A program made the translations under genes and the position numbers. DNA of 52,699 nucleotides, taken from NCBI GenBank assembly GCA_903890485.1, contig CAITBM010000098.1, positions 1 through 52,699 on the forward strand, read 5' to 3'. The stretch comes from an uncultured Opitutaceae bacterium (lineage in GTDB: Bacteria; Verrucomicrobiota; Verrucomicrobiia; Opitutales; Opitutaceae). Positions 3,556 through 48,982 of the stretch are shown one piece after another. The notes under the pieces were generated by a model. It saw only the letters and a program-made list of their open reading frames with translations. It did not search any database and was not told the DNA's origin. The first letter of the stretch is position 1. The number at the start of each line of letters is the position of its first letter.

Positions 3556-5181
3556 CTATTTCTCGAGCCAGATCCGGTCCCAGTTGTGGAAGCCCAGGAT
3601 GCTGGTCTCCCAGCCGCGGACGGCCGGGCTGATCGCATAGACCTGGGGCTGGTAAAAGAGCGGGATCAAGGGCGCTTGGTCGAGCAGGATGGCCTCGGCC
3701 TTCTGGAAGAGCTCCATCCGGGCCGTGTTGTCGGCCGTGTTTGCCGCCTCGGCGAGGAGGCGGTCGTACTCCTTGTTGCTCCACCCTGCCCAGTTGTTGC
3801 CTCCGCCCGAGACCATCATCCCTAGGAAGGTGACCGGGTCCGCAAAATCGGCAATCCATGCTGAAAATGCGATCGAGTAGTTCTTGTCCTGCTGGGTCTG
3901 GAAGAGGGTCTTCATCTCCAGCTGGGCGATCGTGATGTGGACTCCGAGCTCCTTCTGCCAGGTCGCCTGGATGGCTTCGAGCATCCGGATCGAGCTCTCC
4001 GTCTCGTAGCTGAGGACCTCGATCGACGGCAGGCCCTTGCCCCCCGGGTAGCCCGCCTCGGCGAGGAGCTTCCGGGCGAGATCGTAGTCGTCGGTGACCT
4101 GGGTTCGGCACGTGTAGCCGGCGCAGTTGGGAGGCGTGAAGGTGTGGGCCGGCGGGTCGACGCCCTTGTTCAGGTCGGCCGCCATCGCATTGCGGGAGAT
4201 CGCATGGTTGAGGGCCTGCCTGAGCTTCACGTTGTCGAACGGCGGGCGGGTGGTGTTGATGAACAGGTAGAACGTGCTGAGGACGGGATCGATCCGCATG
4301 TCGACCGGGCGGTGGGCACGGTAGGTCTCCACCTTGGAAATCGGGATACCGTACGTCGCGTGCAGCTGGCCCGACCGGTAGTTCAAGTCCTCGGTCTCCC
4401 TCTTCTCGAAGGGGAAGAACTCGATCTTGTTCAGGCGGACCTTGGCGGCGTTCCAGTAGCTGGGGTTCTTCGACACCGTTATGCGGGCGTTGGGGATCCA
4501 CTCCGAAAGCATGAAGGCCCCGTTGCTGACAAGGTTCCCCGCGCGGGTCCAGAGGGTCCCCTTCTTCTCCATGGGCCCAAACTTCTCGACCACCGACTGG
4601 TGCACGGGGAGCCACGTCGTGTGGGTGGCCATCGCGAGCAGCGCCGGCGTCGGGCGCTCGAGCGTGAGCTCAAGCGTCAGCTCGTCGAGGGCTTTGACCC
4701 CGACCAGGGAAAAGTCCTTCACACGGCCCTCGTTGTAGGCCTGGGCGTTCTTGATCGGCCAGAGCATGTACGAGTACACCGCGCCAAATTCCGGGATCAG
4801 GATCCGGTGGAACGAGTAGGCGAAGTCCCCCGCCGTAAGCAGATCCCCGTTGGACCACCTTGCCCCCTTCCTCAGGTGGAACGTGTAGACCAGCCCGTCC
4901 GGCGACACCTCCCACCGCTCGGCGGCCGCGGGGATCACCTCGGAGGTCTTTGCATCCATCTGGACCAGCCCCTCGAAGAGCGCGTACGCGATATGGGAGT
5001 CGGTGAACGCGTTGATGACATGGGGATCCAGGTCCGCCGGCTCCGCCGCATTTCCCACCAGGAGCGTCTGGGTCCGGATGCCCTCCTCGGCGGCCGTTTC
5101 CCGGCGTGCGCAGCCCGAAAGGGCGAGAAGGAGGGAGAGGGAGCCTACAGCAAGGATCTTGCCGGAATGGTTGGTCATCAA
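3556..5181 (-). CDS. Peptide ABC transporter substrate-binding lipoprotein (OppA/DppA-like, SBP_bac_5)
   Basis: A 541-aa periplasmic solute-binding lipoprotein. The N-terminus MMTNHSGKILAVGSLSLLL runs into a lipobox LSGC, giving a lipidated Cys near residue 24. The family-5 features are present: DLDPHVINAFTDSHI near the N-terminus, LFEGLVQMD, WSNGDLLTAGDFAYSFHRI, and the conserved FLLRKGARWS-type block. Full family length. Known relatives capture oligopeptides and hand them to an ABC permease, but no permease or ATPase genes lie next to it, so it must work with components encoded elsewhere. It converges on the barrel gene and reads away from the VOC gene upstream (68-bp gap). Confidence 0.9.
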   Translation of the reverse strand: MMTNHSGKILAVGSLSLLLALSGCARRETAAEEGIRTQTLLVGNAAEPADLDPHVINAFTDSHIAYALFEGLVQMDAKTSEVIPAAAERWEVSPDGLVYTFHLRKGARWSNGDLLTAGDFAYSFHRILIPEFGAVYSYMLWPIKNAQAYNEGRVKDFSLVGVKALDELTLELTLERPTPALLAMATHTTWLPVHQSVVEKFGPMEKKGTLWTRAGNLVSNGAFMLSEWIPNARITVSKNPSYWNAAKVRLNKIEFFPFEKRETEDLNYRSGQLHATYGIPISKVETYRAHRPVDMRIDPVLSTFYLFINTTRPPFDNVKLRQALNHAISRNAMAADLNKGVDPPAHTFTPPNCAGYTCRTQVTDDYDLARKLLAEAGYPGGKGLPSIEVLSYETESSIRMLEAIQATWQKELGVHITIAQLEMKTLFQTQQDKNYSIAFSAWIADFADPVTFLGMMVSGGGNNWAGWSNKEYDRLLAEAANTADNTARMELFQKAEAILLDQAPLIPLFYQPQVYAISPAVRGWETSILGFHNWDRIWLEK

Positions 5182-5249
5182 TGAGTCAGGGGGGGGTGGA
5201 AGGCCGGGAAGCCCCCGCGCCGGCGACCCGGGCGGACTAAAAGGGCGGC

Positions 5250-5567
5250 CTAGTCCTCGACCACGTCAAAGACGTTACCGAAGGGGTCTCGGAAGTAAAG
5301 CGATCGGCCGCGGTCCACGACAATTTCGCACCCGGCGCCCTTCAGGAGCTTCCGGGCCCTGACGATGCTCTTCACGCTGAACGACGGCGTCGGGGGCTGC
5401 GCCTTCGAGGAGCGGTTCACATAGAGCTTGAAATGCCCGGTGTCGAATTCGAGGCAGGAGCGGGTCTTGGACTTCAGCTTGAAGCCCAGGATGTCGCGGT
5501 AGAAGCGCTCGGCCTTTGAGAGGCTCCGCAGGTGGATCGCGACGCAGTTGTTGGACTTAAACCGCAT
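5250..5567 (-). CDS. VOC (glyoxalase/bleomycin-resistance) family protein
   Basis: A 105-aa protein matching a single vicinal-oxygen-chelate module pair. The N-terminus has VAIHLRSLSKAERFYRDILGF, the first beta-alpha-beta-beta-beta unit, and the C-terminus LYFRDPFGNVFDVVED is the typical metal-ligand strand ending in Asp-Pro-x-Gly-Asn. Members include glyoxalase I, dioxygenases and drug-binding proteins; the substrate cannot be inferred. The length is short but within the range of single-domain members. It lies 18 bp downstream of the fatty-acid-hydroxylase/HlyIII fusion gene on the same strand, so the two are probably co-transcribed. Confidence 0.8.
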   Translation of the reverse strand: MRFKSNNCVAIHLRSLSKAERFYRDILGFKLKSKTRSCLEFDTGHFKLYVNRSSKAQPPTPSFSVKSIVRARKLLKGAGCEIVVDRGRSLYFRDPFGNVFDVVED

Positions 5568-5585
5568 CTCCGGCCCCCTTCCCTT

Positions 5586-7085
5586 CTAGGCGTGCTGCGG
5601 CAGAACGAACAGGAGCACAGCCAGGAGGTGGCAGGTGCTCCCTCCCAGGACCAAGGCGTTTGTCGCCGCCACGTGGTAGCGCAGGCTCCGGATCGAGGCC
5701 AGGCCGGCGCTCAGGGTGTAGCAGAGGCCACCGGCCAAGAGGAGCCAAAGTCCCCCGTGCGGCAGCACGGCGAAGAGCGGCTTGATCGCCACCACGACCA
5801 TCCAGCCCACGAACAGCGTCGCGAGGGTCGAGGTCACACGGTAGCGGTTGCCCACGATGAACTGGAAAACGACCCCGGCTCCGCACAGGCCCCAGACGAT
5901 GCCAAAGAGCACCCATCCCAAGGGCCCCCTCAGGCTCACCAGGAGAAACGGCGTGTACGTGCCCGCGATCAGGAGGAAGGCGGAAGCGCGCGCGAATTTG
6001 ACGATCAGCTCCTTGCCCTTCACCGACGGCCACGAGTAGTAAACCGCGGTGATGGCGTAGAGGAGGAACAGGGTGAATCCAAAGACGCTGAAGCTGACGA
6101 CATGCCAGGCGTCGCCGTAGAGGCTCGCCCAGATGACGAGCATCGCGAAGGCGAGCAGGCTCACTCCGACACCGAGCACATTGGTGATGCTGATGGCGAT
6201 CTTCTCCCCCTTGGTCACGGGGCGCTCGGTCTCGGCGGCGCCGGCGCGGTGTTTCTGCACCGATTCCTCGGCCACCTTGTCGAGCATCCGGATCGGCCAG
6301 ATCGGCCTCGGGCTCACGAATTCCTCGGGGGTCCACTCGTCGCCGTCGGAGTAGATGCTCCTCGGCATCAGGCAGGTGCCGAAGACCCAGTCGGCCACCG
6401 GCAGGCAGAAGAAGCCCGAAATCGACTCGTTGCAGTCGATCACGGCATGGTGGCGCAGGTGGAAGCTGTAGGCCGGCCTCCAGAAGAAGCCCCAAGTCTT
6501 GCTCTCGATCAGGGGCTCCCAGACCTCAAGGGACCAGTGCTCGATGGCATGGACGATCTCGTAGATGGAGAGCGAGGAGGCGAGCGCCCCGAACCCGGCG
6601 AAGAACCAGGGGAAGCTCGGGAATGCCCACTGGAGACAGGCCAGGAGCGGCGAGAGCACCCCGGCGAAGACAAAGAGGGTGTACCAGGGGAAGAAGGAGG
6701 CCTCGTGCTGCTCGTCCTCCAGGATCGGGTACTTGTTCTCGATGAACATCAGGCCCTTTCCGTCGCGCGTCTGCTTGCGCGCGATGCGGGTCAGGGCGTG
6801 GTGGAGGGTGTGCTGCCGGTAGAAGCGCCTGAGGAAGGGGACGGCCGGCTTGTGGAGCACGTAGCGGTGGAAGATGTACTCCACGAAGCAGTTCACGAGG
6901 CTTATGGCGAGGAACGCGACCACGCCCTTCCACACCGGCCCGAGGAACTGGGCCTCCCATGTGCCCGGGAACGCGAACCTAAGGACCAGGAGCACGGCCG
7001 CTAGGGAGCCGGCTACGGTTGCGATGAACAGAGGCAGCGAGAACGGCGGGTGCTCGAGCTCTTTGGGCGGGGTTGTGTTTACCAT
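5586..7085 (-). CDS. Fusion: di-iron fatty acid hydroxylase/sterol desaturase domain + degenerate HlyIII/PAQR domain
   Basis: A 499-aa integral membrane protein with two recognisable parts. Residues about 50-240 carry the full eight-histidine di-iron signature of the fatty-acid-hydroxylase/sterol-desaturase superfamily: HX4H (73, 78), HX2HH (92, 95, 96), HX3H (179, 183) and HX2HH (209, 212, 213). Residues about 293-499 look like hemolysin III/PAQR: seven hydrophobic segments, GEKIAISITN at the start, LLYAITAVYYSWP, FLLIAGTYTPF and VLGGSTCHLLAV. The usual PAQR metal ligands are replaced: His by Tyr350, Asp by Ala365 and a motif-C His by Asn476. The start at 7085 was chosen because upstream codons in frame read through tRNA-Val. 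A T6 run (minus strand) lies just before the ATG, with no Shine-Dalgarno sequence. A lipid-modifying role is inferred for the N-terminal half; the role of the second half is unknown. Confidence 0.82.
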   Translation of the reverse strand: MVNTTPPKELEHPPFSLPLFIATVAGSLAAVLLVLRFAFPGTWEAQFLGPVWKGVVAFLAISLVNCFVEYIFHRYVLHKPAVPFLRRFYRQHTLHHALTRIARKQTRDGKGLMFIENKYPILEDEQHEASFFPWYTLFVFAGVLSPLLACLQWAFPSFPWFFAGFGALASSLSIYEIVHAIEHWSLEVWEPLIESKTWGFFWRPAYSFHLRHHAVIDCNESISGFFCLPVADWVFGTCLMPRSIYSDGDEWTPEEFVSPRPIWPIRMLDKVAEESVQKHRAGAAETERPVTKGEKIAISITNVLGVGVSLLAFAMLVIWASLYGDAWHVVSFSVFGFTLFLLYAITAVYYSWPSVKGKELIVKFARASAFLLIAGTYTPFLLVSLRGPLGWVLFGIVWGLCGAGVVFQFIVGNRYRVTSTLATLFVGWMVVVAIKPLFAVLPHGGLWLLLAGGLCYTLSAGLASIRSLRYHVAATNALVLGGSTCHLLAVLLFVLPQHA

Positions 7086-35406: not shown

Positions 35407-37095
35407 TCAGCCCCGGGTGAGGCGCCGGTACTTCATCCGGTGCGGCTGGTCGGCATCCTTGCCGCGCCTGCGCCTAAAGTCCTCGATGTAGCTCGAGTAG
35501 TTGCCCGAGAACCAGTGCGCGGTGCTCTCGCCCTCGAAGGCGAGGATGTGCGTCGCGACGCGGTCCAGGAACCAGCGGTCGTGCGAAACCACGACGGCGC
35601 AGCCCGCAAAATTCTCGAGCGACTCCTCGATCGCCCGGATCGAATTGATGTCCAGGTCGTTCGTGGGCTCGTCCAAGAGGAGCAGGTTGGCGCCCGACTT
35701 CAGGAGCCTCGCCAGGTGGACCCGGTTGCGCTCGCCACCCGAGAGGATCCCCACCTTTTTCTGCTGGTCGGCGCCGGTGAAGCCGAACTGGGCGCAGTAG
35801 GCCCGCGCATTCACCTCGCGGCCGCCCATCCTGAGGATCTCCTCGCCGCCGCTTATCGCCTCGTAGATCGTCGCCTCTCCCGGCAGGGAGTCCCGCGACT
35901 GGTCCACGTGCGCAATCTTCACCGTGTCGCCCACCCTGAGCGACCCCCCGTCGGGCTTCTCGGCGCCGGTGATCAGGCGAAAGAGGGTCGTCTTTCCCGC
36001 CCCGTTCGGCCCGATGACCCCGACGATGCCGCCGGGGGGGAGCGAGAACGTGAGGTTCTCAAAGATCAGGTTCTCGCCGTAGACCTTGGAGAGCGCCTTC
36101 GCCTCGACCACCAGGGTCCCCAACCGGGGACCGGCGGGGATCAGGATCTCAAACTCGCGCTCCTTCTCGGCCGTGTTCTCCTTTAACATGGACTCGTAGG
36201 CCGTGATGCGCGCCTGGGACTTCACCCGCCTCGCAGTCGCCGACTTGCGGATCCACTCGAGCTCGCGCGCCATGGCCTTCTGCCTGCGGTCCTCCGTCCT
36301 CTGCTCGACCGCAAGCCGCTTCTGCTTCTGCTCGAGCCACGACGAGTAGTTCCCCTTCCACGGGATCCCGTGTCCCCGGTCGAGCTCGAGGATCCACTGG
36401 GCGACGTTGTCCAGGAAGTACCGGTCGTGGGTGACGGCGATCACGGTGCCCTCGTAGCGGGCCAGGTGCTGCTCAAGCCACTGCACGCTCTCGGCGTCCA
36501 GGTGGTTGGTGGGCTCGTCCAGGAGCAGGATCGGCGGCTTGCGCAGCAGCAGCCGCGCCAGCGCCACGCGCCGCCGCTCGCCGCCGGAGAGCTTGTCAAC
36601 GACCTGGTCGCCCGGGGGGCACCTGAGGGCGTCCATCGCCATCTCCACCTGCGGGGCCACGTCCCAGGCCCCGGCGGCGTCAATCTTCTCCTGGAGGTCG
36701 CCCTGCCGGGCCATGATCGCCTCCTTGGCCGCATCGTCACTGGCCTCGTTCAACTCGTCCCAAGTCGCGTCGTAGGCCGCCACCAGGTCCGTCAGGTGCT
36801 TCACCCCCTCCTCGACACACTCGCGGACGGTCCTGCCCGCGGCGAGCTGGGGCTCCTGCTCAAGGAGCCCGACCTCGTAGCCGGGCTCAATGTGCACCCT
36901 GCCCTCAATGTCCGTGTCGCGAAGCGCCAGGATGCGCATGAGCGAGGACTTCCCCGACCCGTTGAAACCGAGCACGCCGATCTTAGCCCCGTAATAAAAC
37001 GACAGCGAGATATCGCGCAGGATCTCCTTGCGCTCGATCTTCTTCGAGACGCCGATCATCGAGAAGATGATCTTGGGCTCTTCGGGTTTTGCCAT
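35407..37095 (-). CDS. ettA: Energy-dependent translational throttle protein EttA (ABC-F)
   Basis: A 562-aa soluble ABC-F ATPase with two nucleotide-binding domains. Domain 1 has GFNGSGKSS (Walker A), LSGGERRRVALARLL and LLDEPTNHLDAESVQWLEQHL; domain 2 has GPNGAGKTT, LSGGERNRVHLARLL and LLLLDEPTNDLDINSI. A linker (arm/P-site tRNA-interacting region) of about 80 residues lies between them, including AMARELEWIRKSATARRVKS. It gates the ribosome in response to ADP/ATP. ATG 37095 was chosen over an upstream GTG 37107. Confidence 0.95.
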   Translation of the reverse strand: MAKPEEPKIIFSMIGVSKKIERKEILRDISLSFYYGAKIGVLGFNGSGKSSLMRILALRDTDIEGRVHIEPGYEVGLLEQEPQLAAGRTVRECVEEGVKHLTDLVAAYDATWDELNEASDDAAKEAIMARQGDLQEKIDAAGAWDVAPQVEMAMDALRCPPGDQVVDKLSGGERRRVALARLLLRKPPILLLDEPTNHLDAESVQWLEQHLARYEGTVIAVTHDRYFLDNVAQWILELDRGHGIPWKGNYSSWLEQKQKRLAVEQRTEDRRQKAMARELEWIRKSATARRVKSQARITAYESMLKENTAEKEREFEILIPAGPRLGTLVVEAKALSKVYGENLIFENLTFSLPPGGIVGVIGPNGAGKTTLFRLITGAEKPDGGSLRVGDTVKIAHVDQSRDSLPGEATIYEAISGGEEILRMGGREVNARAYCAQFGFTGADQQKKVGILSGGERNRVHLARLLKSGANLLLLDEPTNDLDINSIRAIEESLENFAGCAVVVSHDRWFLDRVATHILAFEGESTAHWFSGNYSSYIEDFRRRRGKDADQPHRMKYRRLTRG

Positions 37096-46214: not shown

Positions 46215-46493
46215 CTACCGGAGGGTGACCCCCCGGGCGCCGGGCAGGGAAAGGGGCGTTGATTCCCCAGCCGGGACCAGGGCGACCAGGCGAAGGAGCG
46301 CAGGAACCCCGTAGGCCCTGAGGACGAAACCCAGGCCCAACGCCATCTGCACGCCGCCCATCAGGCCGAGCCACAGCGCGCGGCTGTTGGCCAAGTCGGA
46401 GCCCGTATGGGGAAACCAAGACGGAAAGGCCTTGGGCAGCATCTCCAAAACCCAACCTAACACGGCAAATACGAGTGCGTTAGCGAGATTCAT
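46215..46493 (-). CDS. Small membrane protein of unknown function
   Basis: A 92-aa protein beginning MNLANALVFAVLGWVLEML with two predicted hydrophobic helices (about 4-20 and 42-62). No family recognised. An amphipathic stretch ends the protein (LRLVALVPAGESTPLSL). No Shine-Dalgarno sequence is visible. It converges on DUF1634. The 223 bp upstream have no gene, only a hairpin (GGCGACAATC with GATTGGGCGCC, 46636-46670). Confidence 0.55.
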   Translation of the reverse strand: MNLANALVFAVLGWVLEMLPKAFPSWFPHTGSDLANSRALWLGLMGGVQMALGLGFVLRAYGVPALLRLVALVPAGESTPLSLPGARGVTLR

Positions 46494-46716: not shown

Positions 46717-47439
46717 TCAGAGGTCGCCAAGCTGGGGACGAAGCACGATCTCCTCCACCACCGTCCGGGGGCTCATCCGGTAGAGCGCCACGAAGGCCAA
46801 GGCAACGTCCTCAGCCGGCATCATCCGTGCGTCGGGTACGCCGCTGCCCTTCCACGAGGGCGAGACGGTCGCTCCCGGGTGCACGCAGCACACGCGGATG
46901 CCCCTGTCCTTGAGCTCGGCCCGGATTGTCTTGGTGAGCCCGGCGACTCCAAACTTGGCGGCCGTGTAGGCGGCGGCGCCCGGATAAGCCGTGATCCCGG
47001 CTATCGAGCCCATGTTGAAGATGTCCCCCCTGCCCCGGCCAACCATGCCAGGGGCGAACGCCTTCGTGACCAGGAAAAGGCCCCTCAGGTTGGCCGCAAT
47101 CATCCGGTCGAAGTCCTCCACGGAGGTCTCAAGGAAGGGAGCGCCGGCATACTTGCCCGCATTGTTCACAAGGACGTCGACCCCCTTGTACACCCGCAGC
47201 ACCGCCTTCGCCATCTGCGCGACGCTTTCCTCCGCGGTCACGTCACACGAGAACACCTCCGCTCGCGCCCCCAGCTTCCTGCAGGCGGCCGCAACCCCGG
47301 CCAATTTCCCCTCGTTCCGCGCGACGAGAGCCAACCGGACACCCTTCACGTCGGCTGCAAAGGCCTTTGCGATCGCCGCGCCGATCCCCTGGGAGGCACC
47401 GGTGATGACGACGACGGGACTTTTTGGGCGCGAGGGCAT
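46717..47439 (-). CDS. SDR oxidoreductase in a pterin operon (candidate sepiapterin-reductase-like)
   Basis: A 240-aa classical SDR. TGASQGIG (cofactor), NNAG, Ser of GSIAG and Tyr/Lys of YTAAKFG are all present. The end MMPAEDVALAFVALYRM then SPRTVVEEIVLRPQLGDL resembles, from memory, the C-terminus of bacterial sepiapterin reductases. It is the last of three same-strand genes, 18 bp after folE2, which follows a PTPS-family gene. Reduction of a pterin side chain is therefore an attractive but unproven role; a 3-oxoacyl reductase is the default alternative. Confidence 0.85.
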   Translation of the reverse strand: MPSRPKSPVVVITGASQGIGAAIAKAFAADVKGVRLALVARNEGKLAGVAAACRKLGARAEVFSCDVTAEESVAQMAKAVLRVYKGVDVLVNNAGKYAGAPFLETSVEDFDRMIAANLRGLFLVTKAFAPGMVGRGRGDIFNMGSIAGITAYPGAAAYTAAKFGVAGLTKTIRAELKDRGIRVCCVHPGATVSPSWKGSGVPDARMMPAEDVALAFVALYRMSPRTVVEEIVLRPQLGDL

Positions 47440-47457
47440 GTGCGCAGTAGATCCCGC

Positions 47458-48420
47458 CTAGCAAATCAGGGAAGCAAAATCCATGAAGTCCGCGGCGAAC
47501 CCGCCCTTTACCCCCTTGCAGATCACGCTCACCGCGTCGTGCGAGTGGAGGGACTCCAGGTGGGAACAGGCTATCTGGAAGTCCCTCACCCGAGGATCGG
47601 CGTCAAACTGCTGGTACAGGAGCCTCGCGGCGTCCTCGACAAACTTCAGGTTGGCGCCGTTGAGCTCGGCGAATGCCTGCTCGTCCTCGCGCTTAACCAT
47701 GACCTGGGTCTCGGTCTTAAGCGCCTTCTGGCAGAGGGCCTGGATGTCCTCTATCCAGATCTTCTTGCCCTTCACCGCCTCGAGCACGATCCGCGCCTTG
47801 CTGCGCTGGGAATGCGGGACACCGTAGGCCCCGCGGACGTCCCTGGCGTGCTCGGCGAGCTCGGCCGAGCAGGGGCACGCCGATGAGTAGACAAATTCAA
47901 AGTGCACGAAGCGCCGGTACTCGCCGGACCGGGTGAGGACGCCCTCAAACCCCGCCTTGTAGAACTGGAAGCCCGCCAGCCCGCTCCGCAGGCTCCGCTG
48001 GACAATCGGGTAGGAGAAGGAGAGCCGTAGCCGCGCGTCCTTGCTCTTCACCCGGCGCAGGTAGGTCTTCAGGATCCGCCCGACGCTTTCGCCGGTGAAG
48101 ACCTCCGACTTGTGCTCGTAGAAAGAGCGCATGATGCGGCTCATGTTGATGCCCTTCAGTTCGGCCTCAAGGGACACCGTGCCGGTGATGCTGGTCTCAA
48201 GCGTGTGGGTGCCGCCGCCCTTGCGCCGGATCTTAAGCGGGAGCCTGAAGTTCGATATCCCCACCTGCTGGATGGGGACGTGGGCGCCCTGGATGACGTC
48301 GTGGGCCACATCCATGATGTCGGGCATCGACCCGCGGTATTTCTCCGACGGACTGAACCGTTCGTCGTAGGCGCGTTCGATCTTGGGCTTTTTTCCGGCA
48401 GCGGTCGGGTGCAGGTACAT
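47458..48420 (-). CDS. folE2: GTP cyclohydrolase FolE2 (type IB)
   Basis: A 320-aa GTP cyclohydrolase of the zinc-independent FolE2 family; it makes 7,8-dihydroneopterin triphosphate from [22 protein letters not shown] carries the metal-binding Cys182 (or Cys184), and [12 protein letters not shown] is the signature following it. [10 protein letters not shown] and [14 protein letters not shown] occur in the N-terminal T-fold half. It starts 9 bp after the PTPS gene stop. Confidence 0.94.
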
Positions 48421-48429
48421 GGAGATAGG

Positions 48430-48885
48430 TCAGTCGGGCTGGGCTACCGGGCCGAAGTAGTCTGCAAAATTCCTCGGAGTCTCAAAAAGGCGAACGCGGT
48501 GAAGCCGGCCGGCCTTGATCCTTGGGCTTATTCGGGCCCAAAACGCCACGACCAGGTTCTCGGCCGTCGGAATGACACCTTTCAGGAAATCGACGTCCTT
48601 GTTCAGGTTTCGGTGGTCGCAGGGCTTCACGACCGCCAGCTCGAGGATCCGCTTCAGGTCACCCAGGTCGATCACGTACCCGGTCTCAGGGTCCGGCCTT
48701 CCGCGCACCGTCACCTCCAGGACGTAGTTGTGGCCGTGGCCGTTCAGGTTCGAGCACAGCCCGTAGGTCTTCTCGTTCCAGCGGGCGCTCCTTGCGGGGT
48801 TATAAAGGCGGTGCCCGGCGTTGAAATGAACCTGGCGTGTGACGTACACGTCACCGGGCGCCAAGATGTCTTTGTTCCTAGGCAT
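48430..48885 (-). CDS. queD: PTPS/QueD family 6-pyruvoyl- or 6-carboxy-tetrahydropterin synthase
   Basis: A 151-aa T-fold enzyme. Zinc ligands are His25 (NAGH) and His50, His52 (GHGHNY); the catalytic Cys44 sits in GLCSNLNGHGHNY. The stretch VIDLGDLKRILELAV then CDHRNLNKDV is complete. The long spacing Cys-x5-His and this block look closer to PTPS than to E. coli QueD, so 6-pyruvoyltetrahydropterin is as likely a product as 6-carboxytetrahydropterin. It is first of the operon; a TTGACC at 48922-48917 (minus) is a possible -35. Confidence 0.88.
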   Translation of the reverse strand: MPRNKDILAPGDVYVTRQVHFNAGHRLYNPARSARWNEKTYGLCSNLNGHGHNYVLEVTVRGRPDPETGYVIDLGDLKRILELAVVKPCDHRNLNKDVDFLKGVIPTAENLVVAFWARISPRIKAGRLHRVRLFETPRNFADYFGPVAQPD

Positions 48886-48982
48886 GAAGGGGTAGAATTA
48901 ACACAAATCCCGGCCGGGTCAACCTGCCGCAGGAATTACCGTTGCACTCGGCTCCCCACGGAGGAGAAAATGCTCTTGAGTG

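Follow-up and report, generated by a model that had tools for sequence, protein, structure and literature searches.

Introduction

Tetrahydrobiopterin (BH4) is a cofactor best known from animals, in which GTP cyclohydrolase I, PTPS and sepiapterin reductase carry out the three steps of its synthesis. In bacteria, synthesis of BH4 has been described for Chlorobium and for cyanobacteria, which combine a PTPS of the PTPS-II subfamily with a sepiapterin reductase (accessible text of PMC5041015, PMC13259868 and PMC5683033). The PTPS subfamilies are distinguished by motif: CxxxxxHGH stands for PTPS-II (BH4), CxxxHGH for PTPS-I (QueD) and ExxHGH for PTPS-III (folate), according to the accessible portion of PMC5041015, whose Figure 3 presents gene contexts of PTPS-II with FolE2 among the abbreviations of its legend. 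The FolM/PruA-type reductases, which belong to the tetrahydromonapterin route and are also pterin-acting SDRs, carry an N-terminal TGX3RXG motif including an Arg (accessible text of PMC13259868).

Here we describe a locus in a stretch of 52,699 nucleotides, referred to as the window, which is contig CAITBM010000098.1 of an uncultured Opitutaceae bacterium. The host genome (GCA_903890485.1) comprises 3.1 Mb in 144 contigs and is 97% complete. Judging from sequence and structural models, we consider it likely, with a probability of about 85%, that three adjacent genes of the window form a tetrahydrobiopterin operon, whose product would be BH4 or its threo isomer. The locus shares with the animal pathway the same three steps and the same CxxxxxHGH motif in the PTPS, and differs from it by using FolE2 and not a FolE1-type cyclohydrolase, by its arrangement in a single operon, by an SDR nearer to the Chlorobium enzyme and by the lack of a PF00351 consumer in the host genome. 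The PTPS-II and sepiapterin reductase pair is like that of Chlorobium and cyanobacteria, the difference being that PTPS, FolE2 and SDR here share one operon. Our search of the open-access literature brought up neither a BH4 operon built on FolE2 nor work on biopterin in Opitutaceae; the FolE2 version across Opitutaceae seems to be new, as does its being kept where the folate, queuosine and hydroxylase genes that we tested are missing.

Organization and coding status of the operon

The coordinates (Table 1) agree with the initial annotation of this DNA, which had reported the order PTPS, FolE2 and SDR with intergenic gaps of 9 bp (PTPS-FolE2) and 18 bp (FolE2-SDR). GC content at codon position 3 is 0.80-0.88 in the PTPS, FolE2 and SDR frames, indicating that all three are coding. 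Comparison of the operon with five relatives of the closest clade (G005, G008, G010, G007 and G004, the last two contributing partial genes only) gives pN/pS values of 0.19-0.36: the operon genes are under purifying selection.

Table 1 Features of the operon and its upstream region in the window.
Feature	Positions	Strand	Properties
PTPS gene, PTPS-II type, operon gene 1	48430..48885	minus	151 aa; PF01242 120.5 bits
FolE2 (GTP cyclohydrolase IB) gene, operon gene 2	47458..48420	minus	320 aa; PF02649 (GCHY-1) 242.7 bits
SDR gene, sepiapterin-reductase type (predicted), operon gene 3	46717..47439	minus	240 aa; PF00106 (adh_short) 183.1 bits
Upstream gap, likely promoter site (predicted)	48886..48979	minus	From sequence and ORF coordinates; divergent ORF starts 48980

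A small ORF (46215-46493, minus strand) lies downstream of the operon. Similar ORFs occupy the same place in three close relatives, and a Pfam search with the window ORF gave zero matches.

Subfamily of the PTPS

The window PTPS reads CSNLNGHGH, which corresponds to CxxxxxHGH, and contains neither the CxxxHGH nor the ExxHGH motif. This spacing is kept in all 24 rows of an alignment of the window PTPS and 23 relatives, in which Cys44, His50-Gly51-His52, Asp90-His91 and Glu135 are invariant. The results bear out the long Cys-to-His spacing that had been noted earlier as a feature of pyruvoyl-type PTPS, and the landmarks Cys44, GHGHNY (49-54) and CDHRNL (89-94) are all found. Residue 49, which precedes HGH, is Gly in the clade of the window and in animals and Trp (HWHGH) in most other operon PTPS.

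In some COG0720 enzymes a shift of the cysteine is tolerated, so that the PTPS motif by itself is no proof of the subfamily. A profile built from the 24 PTPS sequences scores 143 bits against human, 141 against rat and 122 against C. elegans PTPS, compared with 42-52 bits for QueD-type chains. With the predicted structure of the window PTPS (mean pLDDT 87.6), a fold search has its top matches in the PTPS of human, rat and C. elegans, with QueD after them, and the fold alignment gives 42-43% identity to human and rat PTPS. The curated QueD model TIGR03367 scores the window PTPS at 65 bits, under its cut-off of 89.25, and the general family model TIGR00039 scores it at 84 bits, also under its cut-off (125.5). 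In the PTPS tree the window falls among the other operon PTPS, with long branches and PTPS-I joining at two places; because the reference branches are long, we use this tree and the SDR tree as support only.

Motif, profile and fold all favour an animal-type PTPS, and the placement inside QueD against which the initial annotation had cautioned is not observed. By sequence comparison and modelling, the window PTPS is predicted to be far nearer to animal PTPS than to QueD, an enzyme of the same superfamily that acts on the same substrate and differs by its CxxxHGH motif. A plasmid search with the window PTPS returned 79 records, all below 60% identity, and was uninformative; several of the ten listed are annotated as QueD.

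The SDR and the cyclohydrolase

A profile of 25 operon SDRs retrieves the sepiapterin reductase of Chlorobium tepidum (2bd0) at the top with 224 bits, followed by a two-domain dehydrogenase (192 bits) and 3rkr (182 bits). The model of the window SDR (mean pLDDT 95.3) also has 2bd0 as its best fold match, with an rmsd of 1.4 and 35% identity. As a single query the window SDR gives a tie between 3rkr, an unassigned SDR (124.8 bits), and 2bd0 (124.5 bits). In a tree whose references are a single sepiapterin reductase plus six further SDRs, the operon SDRs have 2bd0 as their sister, a weakly supported join (89/57), and E. coli FolM lies outside this group on a very long branch.

The C-terminus TVVEEIVLRPQLGDL is common in outline to the window SDR and 2bd0, so that the sepiapterin-reductase-like C-terminal motif claimed in the initial annotation holds up as a resemblance in outline. 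As to the possibility that the SDR would group with FabG-like reductases, the best solved match is the Chlorobium sepiapterin reductase and speaks against it, the weak join in the tree being the less secure part of this answer. Over its full length, the nearest known relative of the SDR is, as far as alignments and models tell, a sepiapterin reductase of the Chlorobium type. We also considered a FolM/PruA-type pteridine reductase and ruled it out: the window SDR carries TGASQGIG in place of TGX3RXG, and the Arg is absent.

The window FolE2 scores 283.1 bits with the curated FolE2 model NF010200, over the cut-off of 215. It is the sole PF02649 match of the host genome, in which a profile search at E 0.001 gave no match to FolE1.

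Conservation of the operon across relatives and phyla

A strong match to the window PTPS is present in 25 of 57 relatives, and all 25 belong to the same family, for which 37 genomes were compared. FolE2 comes directly after the PTPS in every one of the 25, and the SDR then follows in 20. Of the 23 relatives that can be judged, three (G011, G013 and G019) have no SDR in the 18-20 kb around the operon; no judgement is possible for G004 and G034, where the available sequence ends. The SDR of G015, G021 and G035 seems to be separated from the genes before it by an ORF of about 157 aa. The genes for a GTP cyclohydrolase, a PTPS-II and a sepiapterin-type reductase thus stand together in the window operon in an order kept in 20/25 relatives, and this three-gene arrangement is not due to chance.

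We extended the survey to the best 80 of 580 confirmed candidate loci, 57 of which were grouped as Verrucomicrobiota (56 by title, and L146, titled only 'bacterium'). Among these best 80, PTPS-FolE2-SDR is found in 46/57 Verrucomicrobiota loci. Nine more have FolE2 with no SDR seen, including L130, L146 and L167, which end at most 1.6 kb past the PTPS; the remaining two are L157, at a contig end, and L164, a PTPS-SDR pair without FolE2. The SDR is missing in 6 of the 53 judgeable Verrucomicrobiota loci of this set.

In the 23 loci from other phyla among the same best 80 of 580, the cyclohydrolase position is occupied by FolE1 in 16 and by FolE2 in none. Where FolE1 follows, the PTPS is 54-64% identical to the window PTPS, except in L195 (53%). 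Ten of these 16 FolE1 loci continue with an SDR, which has the C-terminal motif in six and is only 32-39% identical in four. The clusters of Rhodothermota/Bacteroidota (L174, L178, L180, L181, L182 and L183) have the same PTPS-cyclohydrolase-SDR order and the C-terminal SDR motif, and differ in that FolE1 occupies the position of FolE2. Within the best 80 of 580 loci, FolE1 and FolE2 replace each other at one operon position, an exchange suggesting that dihydroneopterin triphosphate is what the operon requires. FolE1, FolE2 and SDR are all absent from the 2.6 kb after the PTPS in 7/23 of the other-phyla loci from this best-80 set. A PTPS of the same kind with none of the three genes in the 2.6 kb downstream is seen in Hymenobacter (L187, L188, L191, L192 and L194) and in L193.

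Family-wide, the window PTPS used as query gives 194 matches; 191 of the 252 genomes have a strong one, with G022, G078 and G090 set aside. At this frequency, BH4 synthesis from an operon would be a trait of an entire verrucomicrobial family.

Queuosine and folate genes

As an alternative to BH4, the initial annotation had proposed queuosine precursor supply (QueD) with an unrelated SDR. The PTPS would then be a QueD making 6-carboxytetrahydropterin, fed by FolE2. The host genome contradicts this proposal. Its only PF01242 protein is the operon PTPS, which has neither the QueD motif nor a score reaching the QueD cut-off, and QueC (PF06508) gives no match at E 0.001. The same holds for QueC at this threshold in G004, G010 and G034, and the QueC matches in G005, G007 and G008 are marginal only, with E 1e-4 to 1e-3 and frames 400-569 aa long. 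For the host genome we ruled out a QueD role on the motif, the sub-cut-off score and the missing QueC match.

Other operon-bearing relatives give a more divided picture. QueC is strong (E below 1e-50) in 18 of the 25, and nine of these 18 have a second, separate PTPS that carries CxxxHGH, which argues against the operon PTPS being their QueD. The operon PTPS is the sole PTPS in the other nine (G001, G009, G011, G013, G019, G027, G029, G030 and G032, with QueC stretches L254-L262), one of which, G032, is assembled in a single contig; next to QueC in G027 and G029 stands a QueE-like gene, under the curated cut-offs. These nine genomes, and the tolerance of some family members for a moved cysteine, favour a QueD function. 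A second, QueD-like activity of the operon PTPS is therefore possible in the nine, where the enzyme may also do the work of QueD (dual PTPS-II/QueD). As an account of the operon itself, we consider queuosine precursor supply highly improbable.

Folate synthesis, of which folK and folP are treated as signature genes in the accessible text of PMC1971073, was examined through FolB and HPPK. The host genome has no match to FolB or HPPK at E 0.001. The missing FolB would fit a bypass in which the PTPS, as a PTPS-III-type enzyme, replaces FolB and the SDR serves as an alternative dihydrofolate or pteridine reductase; against this, HPPK is missing as well. Across the 25 operon-bearing genomes the two genes are absent together (14) or present together (11), and G004, G005, G007, G008, G010 and G034 lack both while keeping the operon PTPS and FolE2. 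Since, moreover, the PTPS has no ExxHGH and the SDR is without the Arg that marks FolM/PruA-type reductases (accessible text of PMC13259868), we ruled out the folate bypass, which appears to us highly improbable as well. In the host genome both the QueD and the folate-bypass readings thus fail on the lack of QueC, FolB and HPPK matches, and there are genomes in which BH4 appears to be the only purpose of a GTP cyclohydrolase.

The genus mates G002, G003 and G006 have no matches to PTPS, FolE2, FolB or HPPK, and G002 and G003 keep the dehydratase PF01329. A QueC-family match is found in G002 at 2.9e-24, with marginal matches only in G003 and G006.

Proposed pathway

In the pathway we propose, FolE2 would convert GTP into 7,8-dihydroneopterin triphosphate, from which the PTPS-II enzyme would remove the triphosphate and rearrange the side chain, giving 6-pyruvoyl-tetrahydropterin. 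The SDR would then reduce the side-chain ketones with NADPH, yielding tetrahydrobiopterin in the L-erythro form or, as in Chlorobium, in the L-threo form. In Opitutaceae with a phenylalanine hydroxylase, the product would most likely serve that enzyme. We infer these reactions, what they yield and what the product is for. Observed directly are the gene content and its conserved order, the motifs of the subfamilies, the nearest relatives, the purifying selection, the lack of matches to QueC, FolB, HPPK and FolE1, and the co-occurrence with the hydroxylase.

The BH4 route put forward in the initial annotation is the reading best supported by motif, profile, fold, SDR match and hydroxylase co-occurrence. 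Counting against it are the absence of PF00351 from the host genome, the tie of 2bd0 with 3rkr in the single-sequence search, the weak join of 2bd0 in the tree, the missing SDR in some loci and the QueC-bearing relatives with a single PTPS.

Candidate consumers and recycling of the product

We searched for PF00351 aromatic amino acid hydroxylases as possible users of BH4. There is no match in the host genome, and among the 57 relatives only G010 and G027, both operon-bearing, have one. The earlier concern that QueC might be present with no BH4-dependent enzyme is thus resolved on one side only, QueC being absent from the host genome and the PF00351 hydroxylase absent too.

In the family as a whole, PF00351 occurs in 39 of 252 genomes. 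A strong PTPS match accompanies it in 38 of these 39, compared with 153/213 of the others (Fisher p 1.7e-4, uncorrected for ancestry), the one exception being G258. The PF00351 protein of G064 (E 1e-108) differs in kind from the rest, with which it shares about 40% identity, and its genome is 7% contaminated; the G267 match is partial and contains a stop. The aromatic hydroxylase matches of L230 (G065) and G267:C102:2406-2708 read through a stop codon and are possibly broken copies.

The hydroxylase genes of G010 and G027 have homogentisate-dioxygenase-like genes at a distance of no more than about 4 kb, and that of G010 has an HPPD-like gene within the same distance. These neighbours suggest that the hydroxylase works in phenylalanine breakdown through tyrosine. 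Among the best 80 of 580 loci, a hydroxylase stands near the operon PTPS only in L164: PTPS and SDR are adjacent at 5001-7063, there is no FolE2 in the 8.6-kb locus, and a phenylalanine 4-monooxygenase gene on the other strand (its product passing NF008877) has its end next to the SDR. We also compared 21 neighbourhood stretches (14-20 kb from each of 20 relatives, and the part of the window that begins at 36001); no consumer gene beside the operon was seen by eye among the families common to at least 3 of the 21.

The lack of a known BH4-dependent hydroxylase (PF00351) in the host genome would also agree with a related reduced pterin, such as L-threo-BH4 or a partly reduced or glycosylated form, acting in light protection, signalling or redox with no role for a hydroxylase. 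The nearest solved SDR comes from Chlorobium, which makes glycosylated L-threo-BH4 (accessible text of PMC5683033), and pterin glycosides of cyanobacteria act in light responses (accessible text of PMC13259868). The co-occurrence of phenylalanine hydroxylase with PTPS in the family argues otherwise, as does the pterin-4a-carbinolamine dehydratase of the host, which fits a hydroxylase cofactor, and no glycosyltransferase was recognised by eye among the gene families common near the operon. On balance we regard this explanation as unlikely.

Returning to BH4 as the product, FolE2, PTPS, reductase and dehydratase are kept in the host genome without matches to FolB, HPPK, QueC or the hydroxylase, which would point to an undescribed use of BH4. 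The host lineage could make tetrahydrobiopterin for a new BH4-dependent enzyme or for a signalling or photoprotective pterin, a suggestion that we advance tentatively and with some doubt. Genomes with a pathway kept without a known user of BH4 are a direct hunting ground for new bacterial BH4-dependent enzymes, and they caution annotators that not every PTPS-family gene should be labelled QueD.

The pterin-4a-carbinolamine dehydratase (PF01329) of the host genome has a wider distribution than the operon. Within the family, 18 of the 25 genomes that have the PTPS carry it, compared with 2 of 12 without the PTPS (p 0.004). It is also found in 8/20 genomes outside the family, which lack the operon-type PTPS, and the dehydratase is therefore weak evidence. 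In the host genome its gene is flanked by GH9-like and beta-propeller proteins, with no oxygenase among these neighbours. The position beside the GH9-like gene is seen in the clade of the window (L204 8733-9083), and in many other family genomes (L207-L217, L219 and L223) the dehydratase gene lies opposite a conserved cluster that, by eye, resembles uppS-cdsA-dxr.
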